A stretch of 35,774 nucleotides of DNA from Gammaproteobacteria bacterium (GTDB lineage: Bacteria > Pseudomonadota > Gammaproteobacteria > SZUA-140), in contig QIGV01000050.1 in the NCBI GenBank assembly GCA_003230085.1, positions 1-35,774 on the forward strand, in the 5' to 3' direction. The position numbers and the translations under genes are program-made. The notes beneath the pieces are model-generated. The model worked only from the letters and a program-made list of their open reading frames with translations. It had not been told where the DNA came from and searched no databases. Positions 22,162-28,874 of this stretch are shown piece by piece (within the stretch, counting starts at the first letter, position 1; each line of letters opens with the position of its first letter).

Positions 22162-23856
22162 TTGGAATTAACAGGCGCTGAAATTCTAGTCCGGTTCTTG
22201 AAGGATGAGGGCGTCAAACATATATTTGGCTATCCTGGTGGTGCGGTGCTGCATATTTATGATGCGTTGTACCAACAAGAGGACGTCGAACATATCCTGG
22301 TACGCCATGAGCAGGGCGCCACCCACGCGGCAGATGGCTATGCGCGCGCTACCGGTAAACCAGGCGTGGCACTGGTGACATCCGGGCCAGGGGCAACCAA
22401 TGCCGTGACCGGTATTGCAACCGCCTATATGGATTCAATCCCTTTAGTTGTTATTACCGGGCAGGTGCCTACCAACATGATTGGAAATGATGCCTTTCAG
22501 GAAGTGGACTCCGTCGGCATTACCCGGCCCTGCGTGAAGCACAATTTTCTCGTCAAGCATGTCGATGATTTGGCGATAACGCTGAAAAGGGCTTTTTATA
22601 TTGCTACAACTGGGCGGCCTGGTCCTGTGGTTGTCGATGTGCCAAAGGATGTGACCGCGGCGAAAGCAGATTATGTCTTTCCCCGCAAGGTACAAATGCG
22701 TTCGTATAATCCGGTTACCAAGGGACATATCGGCCAGATCAAGCGGGCGGTAAAGCTCATGCTGAGCGCCAAACGTCCTATGCTCTATACGGGTGGGGGC
22801 GTGATTCTCGGGGGCGGAAGCAAACTGCTCACAGAGATGACACAATTGCTCGGTTTTCCTATCACCAACACCTTGATGGGGCTGGGCGCTTACCCCGGTA
22901 CAGACAGGCAATTTCTGGGCATGCTGGGCATGCATGGCACCTATGAAGCCAATATGGCTATGCATCATTGTGATGTGCTGATCGCCATCGGTGCGCGCTT
23001 TGATGACCGCGTAACCGGAAATATAGAAAAATTCTGCACCAAGGCCAAAATCATCCATGTCGATATTGATCCTTCGTCCATATCCAAGAATGTAAGGGTA
23101 GATATCCCTATCGTAGGCACTGTGGATCAGGTCCTCCAGGATATGCTCGATGTTCTTAAAGCGAAGACGCTTAAACCGGATCAGGATGGACTCAAGAACT
23201 GGTGGCAGCAGATTGAAGAGTGGCGCAAGACTGACTGCCTGAAATACGAAAATAGCAAGAAAATTATCAAGCCACAATATGTACTGGAAAACCTGTACAA
23301 GGTGACACGCGGCAATGCTTATGTCACCTCGGATGTGGGACAGCACCAAATGTGGACAGCGCAGTTTTATAAGTTTTCAAAGCCCTATCGCTGGATCAAT
23401 TCAGGCGGTCTGGGGACCATGGGTTTTGGATTGCCTGCCGCTATGGGCGCACAGATTGCCCACCCCCGTTCAACAGTCGTATGTGTTACCGGGGAAGGCA
23501 GTATTCAAATGTGCATACAAGAGCTGGCGACTTGCCTCCAGTATGGCTTGCCTATCAAGATTATCACCCTGAATAATCATTGTTTGGGCATGGTCAGGCA
23601 GTGGCAGGAATTTTTTTACGGGGGACGTTACGCCATGTCCTATATGGATTCACTGCCTGACTTTGTGAAGCTGGCGGAAAGCTATGGCCATGTCGGGATG
23701 CGCATTGAAGACCCCGCCGATGTGGCATCTGCCTTGAAAGAAGCTATGAGTATGAAAAACAAATTAGTTTTTATGGACTTTATTACCGACCAGACAGAAA
23801 ATGTCTACCCCATGATACCGGCTGGTGCCGGTCTGAATGAAATGATTTTAATCTGA
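22162..23856 (+). CDS. ilvB: Acetolactate synthase large (catalytic) subunit
   Basis: ThDP-dependent condensation of pyruvate with pyruvate or 2-ketobutyrate, the first common step of Val/Leu/Ile synthesis. The 564 residues begin MELTGAEILVRFLKDEGV from a TTG codon, supported by GAGGT eight bases upstream and by match to the family start. The catalytic Glu is E50 (VRHEQGATHAADGYAR). The central FAD-type domain follows, and the ThDP/Mg motif GEGS...NN lies at about 444-472. The next gene, the regulatory subunit, starts two bases after the stop. The symbol could equally be ilvI or ilvG; ilvB is used for the catalytic subunit generally. Confidence 0.96.
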   Translation: MELTGAEILVRFLKDEGVKHIFGYPGGAVLHIYDALYQQEDVEHILVRHEQGATHAADGYARATGKPGVALVTSGPGATNAVTGIATAYMDSIPLVVITGQVPTNMIGNDAFQEVDSVGITRPCVKHNFLVKHVDDLAITLKRAFYIATTGRPGPVVVDVPKDVTAAKADYVFPRKVQMRSYNPVTKGHIGQIKRAVKLMLSAKRPMLYTGGGVILGGGSKLLTEMTQLLGFPITNTLMGLGAYPGTDRQFLGMLGMHGTYEANMAMHHCDVLIAIGARFDDRVTGNIEKFCTKAKIIHVDIDPSSISKNVRVDIPIVGTVDQVLQDMLDVLKAKTLKPDQDGLKNWWQQIEEWRKTDCLKYENSKKIIKPQYVLENLYKVTRGNAYVTSDVGQHQMWTAQFYKFSKPYRWINSGGLGTMGFGLPAAMGAQIAHPRSTVVCVTGEGSIQMCIQELATCLQYGLPIKIITLNNHCLGMVRQWQEFFYGGRYAMSYMDSLPDFVKLAESYGHVGMRIEDPADVASALKEAMSMKNKLVFMDFITDQTENVYPMIPAGAGLNEMILI

Positions 23857-23858
23857 TT

Positions 23859-24350
23859 ATGCGGCATATTATATCCATATTAATGGAAAACGAGGCGGGG
23901 GCATTGTCACGTGTGGCTGGCTTGTTCAGTGCGCGCGGATACAATATCGAGTCACTGACTGTGGCGCCAACTGAAGATGCTTCCATGTCGCGCTTGACAC
24001 TGGTAACTCGCGGGTCCGAAGAAATTATTGAACAAATTACCAAGCAGCTCAATAAACTTATTGATGTAATTAAATTGCAGGACCTGTCAGAAGGAACGCA
24101 CATAGAGCGGGAAATTCTGTTAATTAAGGTCAAGGCTATGGATAATGGTCGTGAAGAGATGATGCGTCTCACTGATATCTTTCGAGGCAGCATTATCGAT
24201 GTGACTGAGCAGGCATTCACCGTTGAAGTTACCGGTACTGGCGAAAAACTGGATGCCTTTATAGAAGCCGTAGATAAACAGCTGATTATTGAAACAGTTC
24301 GTTCAGGGGTGACAGGCATTGCCCGTGGCGATAAGTGTCTGCGGGTCTGA
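23859..24350 (+). CDS. ilvH: Acetolactate synthase small (regulatory) subunit
   Basis: Regulatory partner of IlvB that confers valine feedback inhibition and stimulates catalysis. It has 163 residues. An N-terminal ACT domain (about 4-75: ISILMENEAGALSRVAGLFSARGYN) contains the Gly/Asn-lined effector site. The C-terminal ALS_ss_C domain begins near 85 (HIEREILLIKV). The length matches IlvH rather than the short IlvM or IlvN types. It lies two bases after ilvB and 78 bases before ilvC, so the three are probably co-transcribed. Confidence 0.96.
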   Translation: MRHIISILMENEAGALSRVAGLFSARGYNIESLTVAPTEDASMSRLTLVTRGSEEIIEQITKQLNKLIDVIKLQDLSEGTHIEREILLIKVKAMDNGREEMMRLTDIFRGSIIDVTEQAFTVEVTGTGEKLDAFIEAVDKQLIIETVRSGVTGIARGDKCLRV

Positions 24351-24398: not shown

Positions 24399-25445
<1,047 letters not shown>

Positions 25446-25561: not shown

Positions 25562-26209
25562 ATGTCTGCGGAGTACCCCTACATCGCGCGCCAGGGATGG
25601 CCTCTCATTCTTGTGATTGTTGTCATTGCCCTGATTGCACAGGTAACCGGTGGCATCGCCTGGTCGATTGTCCCGTGGCTGCTCACTGGGTTTCTGATTT
25701 ATCTCTTCCGCGACCCGAAGCGTAGCATACCACCAGCTCCACTGGGGATTGTCAGTCCTGTGGATGGTGAAGTGACGGCCGTCACCGAGACCCATGACCC
25801 CTATCTAGATCGTGAAGCAATCAGAATCAGGCTGCGTATGAGTATCATGGGCAGCTACTCAATCCGTATTCCGACCGAAGGTAAGGTGATGAAGGTATGG
25901 TCGCAGCAGATTCAGGAGAAGGAAGCACAGGACAAGACCGAGAGCGGAGCACCGGTCGACCGCTATGCAATCTGGGTGCAGACCGACGAGGAGGATGACG
26001 CCGTTGTGGTGATCAGGCGATTTAGAAGATTGATTCGCCCCCAGTGTTACATTTATATCGGTCAGCGCATCGGTCAGGGACAGCGTTGTGGGATGGTCAG
26101 TTTCGGCGGAGGCATTGATGTCTATATCCCCACCAATTCACGAATTCAGGTCCATAAGGGTGACAAGGTCTGTGCAGGCTCGGATATCATCGCTACGTTC
26201 ACTCATTAA
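25562..26209 (+). CDS. Phosphatidylserine decarboxylase-like protein lacking the pyruvoyl serine (putative pseudoenzyme)
   Basis: 215-residue homologue of the short bacterial Psd proenzyme, in the usual position between ilvC and pssA. The N-terminus YIARQGWPLI, two membrane segments (about 14-48), FRDPKR, SPVDGEV with the catalytic-type Asp (D68), and DPYLDREA are all family-like. The self-cleavage site, normally FGSR followed by VDVYLP, reads FGGGIDVYIP (181-190), so the Ser that becomes the pyruvoyl group is Gly183. The NVHSNR block with the catalytic His reads GSYSIR (97-102), with Tyr99 in its place. The LENERN block is also lost. The frame is intact, which argues for a retained non-decarboxylase role. 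A true Psd must be encoded elsewhere. Confidence 0.8.
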   Translation: MSAEYPYIARQGWPLILVIVVIALIAQVTGGIAWSIVPWLLTGFLIYLFRDPKRSIPPAPLGIVSPVDGEVTAVTETHDPYLDREAIRIRLRMSIMGSYSIRIPTEGKVMKVWSQQIQEKEAQDKTESGAPVDRYAIWVQTDEEDDAVVVIRRFRRLIRPQCYIYIGQRIGQGQRCGMVSFGGGIDVYIPTNSRIQVHKGDKVCAGSDIIATFTH

Positions 26210-26233: not shown

Positions 26234-27013
26234 GTGACAGAAGAGATCAAGGAACCAAAGCGGCGCAGAGGGATTTACTTGCTGCCTAACTTGTTTACGA
26301 CAGCTGCATTGTTTGCCGGATTCTACGCCATCGTAGCGTCTATCGGTGGTCGCTTTGAAGCGGCAGGAATAGCCATTTTTGTCGCCATGTTTATGGATGG
26401 TGCCGATGGCCGCATTGCTCGCCTGACCAACACTCAAAGTGACTTTGGCGTCGAATACGACAGTCTTTCTGATATGGTGGCCTTTGGTTTGGCGCCGGCG
26501 CTGGTGGTCTATATCTGGTCACTATCGTCACTAGGGAAACTCGGTTGGCTGGCAGCCTTTATCTATACGGCCGCGGCTGCATTACGTCTGGCGCGTTTCA
26601 ATACTCAGTCAGAAAGCAGTGACAAGGCTTATTTTCAGGGTCTGCCATCACCTCCTGCAGCTGCCCTGATTGCCGCATTGGTTTGGCTCGGTAGTGATTA
26701 TGGCGTTAAGGGTGAAGACATCGCCTACCTGACGTTCATACTGACCCTGGGGGCAGGCCTGCTGATGGTCAGTAATGTCCGTTACTACAGCTTCAAGGAC
26801 ATTGACCTCAAAGGTAAAGTACCCTTTGTGGCACTCTTGCTACTGGTGTTAATTATTGTGTTTGTGTCTATCGATCCGCCTATCATCCTGTTTACCATGG
26901 CGGTTACCTACGCATTATCTGGATTTCTAATCACTCTTTTTCAGCTGCGTAAAAGACGTGCTGAGAGAAAAACGGCGCTTAAAGGAGGGGATGGGCCGGA
27001 CAAAAACACATAA
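26234..27013 (+). CDS. pssA: CDP-diacylglycerol-serine O-phosphatidyltransferase (PssA, CDP-alcohol type)
   Basis: Makes phosphatidylserine from CDP-diacylglycerol and serine in the inner membrane. The 259 residues start at GTG. The signature DGADGRIARLTNTQSDFG..YDSLSDM (about 56-80) matches DxxDGxxARxxxxxxxxGxxxDxxxD exactly. Several hydrophobic helices follow. This is the Bacillus-type integral membrane enzyme, unrelated to the phospholipase-D-like PssA of E. coli. It lies 24 bases after the Psd-like gene. Since that gene appears catalytically dead, the pathway from PS to PE presumably uses another decarboxylase. Confidence 0.93.
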   Translation: MTEEIKEPKRRRGIYLLPNLFTTAALFAGFYAIVASIGGRFEAAGIAIFVAMFMDGADGRIARLTNTQSDFGVEYDSLSDMVAFGLAPALVVYIWSLSSLGKLGWLAAFIYTAAAALRLARFNTQSESSDKAYFQGLPSPPAAALIAALVWLGSDYGVKGEDIAYLTFILTLGAGLLMVSNVRYYSFKDIDLKGKVPFVALLLLVLIIVFVSIDPPIILFTMAVTYALSGFLITLFQLRKRRAERKTALKGGDGPDKNT

Positions 27014-27069: not shown

Positions 27070-27186
27070 ATGTTCAACGATATCGCAATATCCACAGAAG
27101 CAGCATGCCATGCATGTACCCAAGGCAGCGTTGCCGCTGACCTGTTAAATTCCAGTGTTCTCCCACTGTGCCTGCTGCTGCCGTAA
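27070..27186 (+). CDS. leuL: Putative leucine leader peptide of leuA (attenuation)
   Basis: A 38-codon frame starts at ATG 27070 and ends VLPLCLLLP at a TAA at 27184. Six of its 38 residues are Leu, three of them consecutive CTG codons three codons before the stop. A GCTGCC/GGCAGC hairpin (27177-27192) overlaps the Leu codons and the stop, and a terminator-like hairpin with T6 follows at 27228-27268. The layout matches ribosome-mediated attenuation of leucine operons: stalling at Leu codons would favour an alternative RNA structure and allow leuA transcription. Weak points are a poor Shine-Dalgarno (GGGTGG is 14 bases away) and no clearly identified antiterminator pairing. Confidence 0.55.
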   Translation: MFNDIAISTEAACHACTQGSVAADLLNSSVLPLCLLLP

Positions 27187-27192
27187 GGCAGC
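27177..27192 (+). promoter_or_regulatory. Leader hairpin overlapping Leu codons and stop
   Basis: GCTGCC-GTAA-GGCAGC gives a perfect 6-bp stem with a GNRA-type tetraloop. It includes the last Leu codon and the stop of the putative leader peptide. It could be the pause hairpin of the attenuator. Confidence 0.5.
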
Positions 27193-27314: not shown

Positions 27315-28874
27315 ATGAATAGCAAAGAAAAACTCATTATTTTTGATACAACCTTGCGGGACGGGGAACAAAGTCCTGGAGCCTCGATGACGCGGGATGA
27401 AAAGGTTCGCATCGCCAGGATGTTGGAGCGCATGCGGGTCGACGTGATCGAGGCCGGTTTTCCCATCGCCAGCACTGGAGATTTTGATGCTGTACAGGCT
27501 GTAGCAAGAGCCGTCCGTGACAGTACGGTATGTGGCCTGGCACGGGCCCTGAAAAATGATATTGACCGCGTTGGTGAAGCATTAAAGGATGCTGCATCCG
27601 CCAGAATTCATACCTTTATAGCCACGTCACCGATTCACATGCAAATGAAATTACGCATGACGCCCGAGCAGGTGCTAGAGCAGGCGGTGGATGCTGTCAG
27701 GCATGCCCGCCAATATACAGATGACGTAGAATTTTCACCTGAAGATGCGGGACGGTCTGATGTCGATTTCCTCTGCCAGATAATTGAGGCTGTTATTAAT
27801 GCTGGTGCCAGGACAGTCAATATTCCTGATACGGTAGGTTATAATATACCGCAGCAATTTGGCGATCTCATCCGTAATTTGATTGAACGTGTACCGAACT
27901 CTGATCAGGCTGTTTTCTCTGTTCATTGCCACAATGATCTGGGGTTGGCGGTTGCCAATTCATTAGCGGCAGTCATGTGTGGCGCCCGTCAGGTGGAGTG
28001 CACCATCAACGGATTGGGTGAAAGGGCGGGCAATGCTGCGTTGGAAGAAACAGTGATGACCGTACGGACGCGCCAGGATGTTTTCCCCTGCGAGACGGGT
28101 ATTGATACGACTCTGATCGTGCCTGCTAGTCGGCTAGTAGCAGGAATAACCGGGTTTGCAGTACAGCCGAACAAGGCCATAGTGGGTGCCAACGCCTTTG
28201 CCCATGAATCCGGCATTCATCAGGATGGTGTTTTGAAGAGCCGTGAAACCTATGAAATCATGCGGGCGCAGGATGTAGGCTGGAATGCCAATCGTATGGT
28301 GCTGGGCAAACATTCCGGTCGTAATGCTTTTCGAACTCGTTTGAAGGAATTGGATATCGAGTTTGATTCAGAAAATGAATTGAACGAAGCATTTACACGT
28401 TTCAAGGATCTGGCTGACAAGAAACATGAAATCTATGATGAAGATCTGCAGGCGCTAGTGACAGATGCTGGCCTTGCTGCTGAAAATGAACGGATTAAAT
28501 TGGTGGCGCTAAAGGCTTGTTCAGAAACCGGCGAAAAACCACAGGCTGAGGTAAAACTGTGGTTTGACGGGCAGGAAACACAGGTCATGGCAATCGGCAG
28601 CGGTCCAGTGGACGCTACTTTTCGAGCCATCGATTCCATCATCAAAAGCGAGACGGAATTACAACTCTATTCAGTCAATGCGATTACCAGCGGCACTGAC
28701 TCGCAGGGAGAAGTCACGGTACGTTTGGAAAGGGCGGGACACATTGTCAACGGGCAGGGTGCAGATACCGATATTGTGATTGCCTCGGCCAAGGCCTATA
28801 TCAATGCCCTGAATAAAATAATAGAACCGGCTGATCGAGCACATACCCTCAGGGGTACAGGTCCTCAGGTTTAA
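27315..28874 (+). CDS. leuA: 2-isopropylmalate synthase
   Basis: First committed enzyme of leucine synthesis, condensing acetyl-CoA with 2-ketoisovalerate. The 519 residues match the proteobacterial short form. The N-terminal TIM barrel carries [15 protein letters not shown] (11-25), the metal-binding [12 protein letters not shown], and [25 protein letters not shown] lies in the linker. The C-terminal LeuA allosteric domain (about 390-519) provides leucine feedback. A GGAG Shine-Dalgarno is seven bases before the ATG. Upstream lies a putative Leu leader peptide and attenuator, so control is probably both allosteric and transcriptional. Confidence 0.97.

Follow-up and report, generated by a model that had tools for sequence, protein, structure and literature searches.

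Within the analyzed window, a stretch of 35,774 nucleotides, a gene encoding a short-form Psd homologue of 215 amino acids is located at positions 25562..26209 of the plus strand. The gene, designated psdL, was characterized by its open reading frame, a PF02666 match and an AlphaFold2 (AF2) model, and is interpreted as encoding a catalytically dead family member. It starts with ATG, terminates with TAA and has zero internal stops in the ORF check of the window; coordinates, length and the frame without stops or shifts had been given correctly in a first-pass annotation of this DNA. The genes ilvB (22162-23856), ilvN (23859-24350) and ilvC (24429..25445, plus strand) are located upstream, the latter being the neighbour of psdL. 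The pssA gene (26234..27013, plus strand), encoding a type-II CDP-diacylglycerol-serine O-phosphatidyltransferase (TIGR00473, 117 bits, cut-off 107), follows 24 bp downstream, and leuA (27315..28874, plus strand) is the next gene within this conserved neighbourhood. Between pssA and leuA, a terminator-like hairpin was noticed at 27174-27192, which is a consensus match only, the number of such matches being close to the shuffled expectation.

By descent, psdL belongs to the Psd superfamily. Its product matched PF02666 over the whole catalytic domain (E=1.2e-15, 58.2 bits, cut-off 22). The best NCBIfam Psd equivalog, NF003680, yielded 164.7 bits vs. a cut-off of 262, and scores for all ten other NCBIfam Psd equivalogs were likewise below their cut-offs. 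As a control, the genuine short Psd L079, encoded in the same gene slot, scored 318 against the equivalog cut-off of 262. A phmmer search of the psdL product against PDB sequences returned no useful match.

Loss of decarboxylase chemistry, already proposed in the first-pass annotation, was evident from the alignment with true short-form Psds (all features of psdL specified in the following are located on the plus strand). The residues FGGG (181-184; 26102..26113) align column by column with FGSR of the true enzymes, placing Gly183 at the position of the pyruvoyl serine. Moreover, GSYSIR (97-102; 25850..25867) replaces NVHSNR, with Tyr99 in the column of the catalytic histidine (E. coli His144). 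The aspartate of the PxDG motif was indeed found to be kept (Asp68; 25763..25765; E. coli Asp90) and is conserved in 92% of the dead clade described below. The equivalences of His144 to position 99 and of Asp90 to Asp68 are those of our own motif alignment. A third loss, overlooked previously, concerns the substrate loop GRFFNA...DKAS.ENERN, which is degenerate or deleted in psdL, with a remnant at about residues 117-133 (25910..25960) in the alignment and the AF2 models. E. coli Psd represents an active enzyme of the long LGST form featuring D90/D142-H144-S254, whereas PsdL is short and appears to be dead. For the E. coli enzyme, it was reported that His144 mutants make no PE, decarboxylation being abolished, and that the S254A proenzyme remains uncleaved (PMC7952604).

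Sequencing error or chance can be ruled out as the cause of these replacements, since the same catalytic residues are missing from the nearest relatives of psdL (60%, 56% and 54% identity) and the His+Ser pair is absent in every one of the approximately 106 dead-clade homologues collected. Position 183 is occupied by G (32), A (25), R (23), S (15), C (4) and others in the dead clade, and His at position 99 is changed to Tyr or Phe in 45 of 52 families. An alternative pyruvoyl serine within AGS at residues 205-207, which the first-pass annotation had named as an example of what would refute its reading, was rejected, Ser207 being present in just 52% of the dead clade; furthermore, an alignment-wide check of the clade revealed no conserved alternative serine column above 78%. 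Based on these sequence comparisons, psdL almost certainly encodes a pseudoenzyme and is a member of an ancient, selectively maintained clade. Since the serine, the histidine, the loop and the model cut-off that define the family's enzymes are all missed, the gene should not be called phosphatidylserine decarboxylase on sequence grounds. In 15 members of the dead clade (L013, L015, L065, L067, L073, L075 and others), serine is found at the pyruvoyl position together with a missing catalytic histidine; for these proteins, self-cleavage without decarboxylation is possible.

Two motifs were gained in psdL. The acidic motif TDEEDD (141-146; 25982..25999) belongs to a TDExDD signature, and GQRIGQGQRCG (167-177; 26060..26092), which is situated shortly before the former cleavage site, to a GERxGQGQRCG signature. 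The AF2 model, computed with 105 relatives, reached a pLDDT of 91 and comprises an N-terminal helical hairpin followed by a beta-rich barrel. The hairpin consists of two hydrophobic helices (residues 10-30 and 32-48; 25589..25705), is predicted to anchor the protein in the membrane and is the same in the model of an active short Psd, in line with the earlier statement that membrane segments and overall length were retained. The active control shows the same order of elements; its ENERN region additionally forms a helix (125-131), which is missing from the psdL model. TDExDD is predicted to form a turn between strands 134-140 and 146-152. Among solved structures, the best PSD-fold matches of the psdL model were PsiD (Foldseek probability 1.00, TM 0.46) and E. 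coli PSD (7CNX/7CNZ; 0.95, TM 0.43); the scores are weak, although the match to the latter is specific. The active short-form control matched E. coli PSD better (E=1e-4).

In order to describe the distribution of psdL, a profile of the gene product and its relatives was applied to 369 sampled genomes of the class and matched in 125 of them; about 120 loci were collected and classified as dead or genuine. The dead form is represented by 106 distinct sequences from 107 genomes, 72 genera and 52 families, with open frames throughout the collected loci, and is carried by about 100 of the 369 sampled genomes (27%). Genuine short Psds featuring NVHxNR and FGSR account for 19 distinct sequences from 11 numbered families and one named MAG. 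No family of the collected set holds both kinds. The 18 best matches outside the class, as read, were all genuine (NVHVNR or SVHVNR, and FGSR), and a single-protein search of genome contigs recovered one genuine short Psd, originating from an Acidiferrobacteraceae MAG.

A separate long-form Psd with a strong PF02666 match was detected in 99 of the 107 dead-form genomes vs. none of the 19 genomes harbouring a genuine short Psd (Fisher p about 3e-17). Among the sampled genomes, an intact short Psd thus occurs exactly where no other Psd is present. Many genomes possess a long-form Psd without psdL, and three (G119, G185 and G318) encode two long-form Psds each besides the dead short form. The first-pass annotation had reasoned that a second, genuine Psd is needed for PE synthesis, which agrees with 99 of the 107 dead-form genomes; in the source genome itself (G000; 81% complete, 241 contigs), a search of the assembly did not find a long-form Psd. 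Within the family to which psdL's host belongs, the long psd gene resides between epmA and cinA. The G000 assembly lacks both flanks; in the congener G001, epmA lies at a contig end (20022 of 20024) and cinA starts 105 bases into another contig, and in G012, epmA is near a contig end. True absence of a second Psd from these three genomes was therefore not accepted, the epmA-psd-cinA region being unassembled or located at contig ends. Since both flanks are missing from G000 and the region falls between two contigs in G001, an assembly gap is the simplest reading for the source genome.

The origin of the dead clade was addressed by means of a tree of genuine and dead sequences built without the active-site columns. 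One branch (SH-aLRT 100) separates the 19 genuine sequences from the dead ones, the distant outlier L170 being set aside. The serine column (183) requires at least 38 changes on this tree, as expected where a site is no longer needed. According to these sequence data, the dead clade has a single origin from a short-form Psd in the ilvC-psd-pssA slot. Values of dN/dS (NG86) were mostly 0.11-0.28 for close pairs of dead forms, 0.04 for one further pair with saturated dS, and 0.04-0.07 for pairs of genuine short Psds. Counting one sequence per family (52 families), 11 positions gained near-invariance in the dead clade (P57, P60, L61, E106, D142, E143, D145, R169, G171, Q172 and H215), D142 and E143 being 100% conserved, and 31 positions fixed in genuine Psds became free to vary. 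TDExDD is already present in some genuine sequences (L022 and L105), so that some of this motif may be older than the loss of catalysis.

The gene order around psdL is retained, as first noted: ilvC and pssA directly flank the gene at 101 of 108 dead-form loci, compared with 16 of 21 genuine short Psd loci. Selection on a non-decarboxylase function, as suggested in the first-pass annotation, is borne out by the dN/dS values, the newly invariant residues and this conserved synteny, and maintenance of psdL for a function other than decarboxylation is well supported. Three genomes retain psdL without an adjacent pssA. In G093 (L108) and G220 (L101), pssA has been relocated elsewhere and psdL still follows ilvC; the genes after psdL resemble those for a SPOR-domain (DedD-type) protein and CvpA at both loci. 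In G185 (L146, G185:C10:99500-102500), psdL is located beside udg and rimI, and ilvC, pssA and leuA are gone from the spot; besides its two long-form Psds, this genome encodes only a distant PssA (35% identity). PssA, in turn, is not strictly dependent on psdL, since ilvC and pssA abut in relatives of the same family that have no psdL. Apparent IlvC-PsdL fusions (570-aa frames at L115, L116 and L125) were rejected, their upstream part representing an out-of-frame open stretch.

Residual distance correlations were computed for 42 genomes, mostly of different families, with the neighbours leuA, udg and rimI as well as the long Psd serving as controls. The correlation between psdL and pssA (r=0.33, p=0.004) is not specific, since leuA (0.41), udg (0.35) and rimI (0.30) gave comparable values; the known complex IlvB-IlvN reached 0.85 in the same test. 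An initial mirror-tree with IlvC as the sole control had yielded a correlation of psdL and pssA (r=0.46, p=0.001), the specificity of which disappeared upon addition of leuA, udg, rimI and the long Psd. No residual correlation was observed between psdL and the long-form Psd (r=0.08, p=0.25). PssA and the long-form Psd, encoded by unlinked genes of one pathway, showed a value of 0.42 (p=0.002).

Based on these results, a selected pseudoenzyme clade with an accessory role in the PS/PE pathway is proposed as the best overall explanation, with a probability of roughly 0.5. The clade would have arisen in lineages where a long-form Psd encoded elsewhere makes PE, PsdL remaining as a membrane-anchored factor of the pathway. 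The gained acidic turn and the GERxGQGQRCG loop may bind a partner, for which the type-II PS synthase PssA is the most plausible candidate, possibly with co-binding of an anionic lipid headgroup, and PsdL would tune or localize PS production instead of decarboxylating PS. Taken by itself, the accessory role is put forward tentatively, at close to even odds. Sensing of the headgroup by the old pocket is doubtful, since the PS-binding loop is lost. Of the functional proposal in the first-pass annotation, selection for a non-decarboxylase role thus stands; its more specific version, a scaffold or a regulator that binds PS or PssA, did not receive a PssA-specific co-evolution signal. A further view, held to be less likely than not, is that the Psd-derived barrel was rebuilt to serve a new purpose, as a novel ligand site or as a regulator dedicated to bacterial PS synthase, with E106, TDExDD and GERxGQGQRCG as its signature in at least 52 families.

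A serious rival, although unlikely overall, assumes that the fold came to bind a new ligand or to catalyse a reaction other than PS decarboxylation, involving E106, TDExDD, R169/Q172/R175, Cys176 and His215. In true Psds, these polar or charged residues are missing or vary; across the 52 families, they are about 87-100% conserved, and invariant charged side chains fit a ligand or metal site better than a loose scaffold; the replacement of His99 by Tyr or Phe in 45 of the families points in the same direction. However, no family match indicates any chemistry or ligand, and the modelled beta-turn bearing TDExDD could equally serve as a docking surface. Less probable still is that PsdL acts as an allosteric partner of the long-form Psd, comparable to the dead AdoMetDC paralogue of trypanosomes. 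Activation of a pyruvoyl-dependent decarboxylase by a dead paralogue is known for this AdoMetDC prozyme (PMC5201418), and psdL occurs together with a long-form Psd in nearly all dead-form genomes. This co-occurrence, however, is already accounted for by the need of some Psd; moreover, the long form often occurs without psdL, the genes lie at distant genomic sites, and the residual distance correlation described above is absent for this pair.

Decay of a gene held temporarily by its operon position is very improbable and contradicted by the conservation pattern. psdL evolves fast, with about 60% identity to its counterpart in the congener (G001) vs. 90% for IlvC and 86% for PssA, and is missing from some lineages; nevertheless, dN/dS is well under 1, frames are open throughout, the new positions are almost fully conserved across the 52 families, and the gene is kept outside the operon in G185. 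Retained decarboxylase activity with a pyruvoyl group from another residue is strongly disfavoured and the least probable reading. Asp68, fold and operon position are retained and Ser183 persists in 15 clade members, but His99 and the ENERN loop are gone in the clade, no alternative serine is conserved, and cells with the dead form keep another Psd.

PsdL shares fold, length and N-terminal hairpin with short-form Psds (PRK05305 group/NF003680; archaetidylserine decarboxylase TIGR00164) as well as the RDP linker, Asp68 and the position between ilvC and pssA, at roughly 25-43% identity to the genuine enzymes. It differs by lacking the pyruvoyl Ser, the catalytic His and the ENERN loop, by its score below the family cut-off and by the gain of TDExDD and GERxGQGQRCG. 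Like the trypanosomatid AdoMetDC prozyme, it appears to be a selectively maintained, catalytically dead paralogue of a decarboxylase that depends on a pyruvoyl group; the prozyme, however, forms a heterodimer with its active paralogue, which it thereby activates, and belongs to a different sequence family, and no such link was detected for psdL. If PsdL is a regulator, it may by analogy work like such dead paralogues. PssA (TIGR00473), a conserved neighbour, is an unrelated protein and a candidate partner.

A published description of a dead Psd family was not found in the open-access literature; new here is the family-wide picture of 52 families, one origin and a distribution complementary to the long Psd. 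The replacement of a genuine short Psd by dead psdL wherever a long Psd exists represents a well-replicated natural conversion of an enzyme into a pseudoenzyme. psdL is filed as Psd by Pfam and NCBI models, and automatic annotation by PF02666 would assign Psd to this locus in dead-form genomes; in draft genomes missing the long form, metabolic models would wrongly route PE synthesis via a dead protein. For type-II PssA, little is understood of how PS synthase is balanced with PS decarboxylation. The dead Psd that about one in four sampled genomes of the class have next to pssA provides a concrete gene for probing this balance.

Further Psd-like proteins were noticed in a few dead-form genomes. 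The outlier L170 (G374:C1:2312893-2313375) is a third Psd-like protein featuring DVHVQR and GST, a very long branch and a different context; its host G374 also possesses the dead form and a long Psd. Moreover, in addition to the dead form and the long-form Psd, extra PF02666 homologues are encoded by frames measuring about 355-470 aa (G174:C30:39528-40151, G284:C38:44979-45623 and G296:C56:110387-111001); these could be PsiD-like, non-PS decarboxylases.
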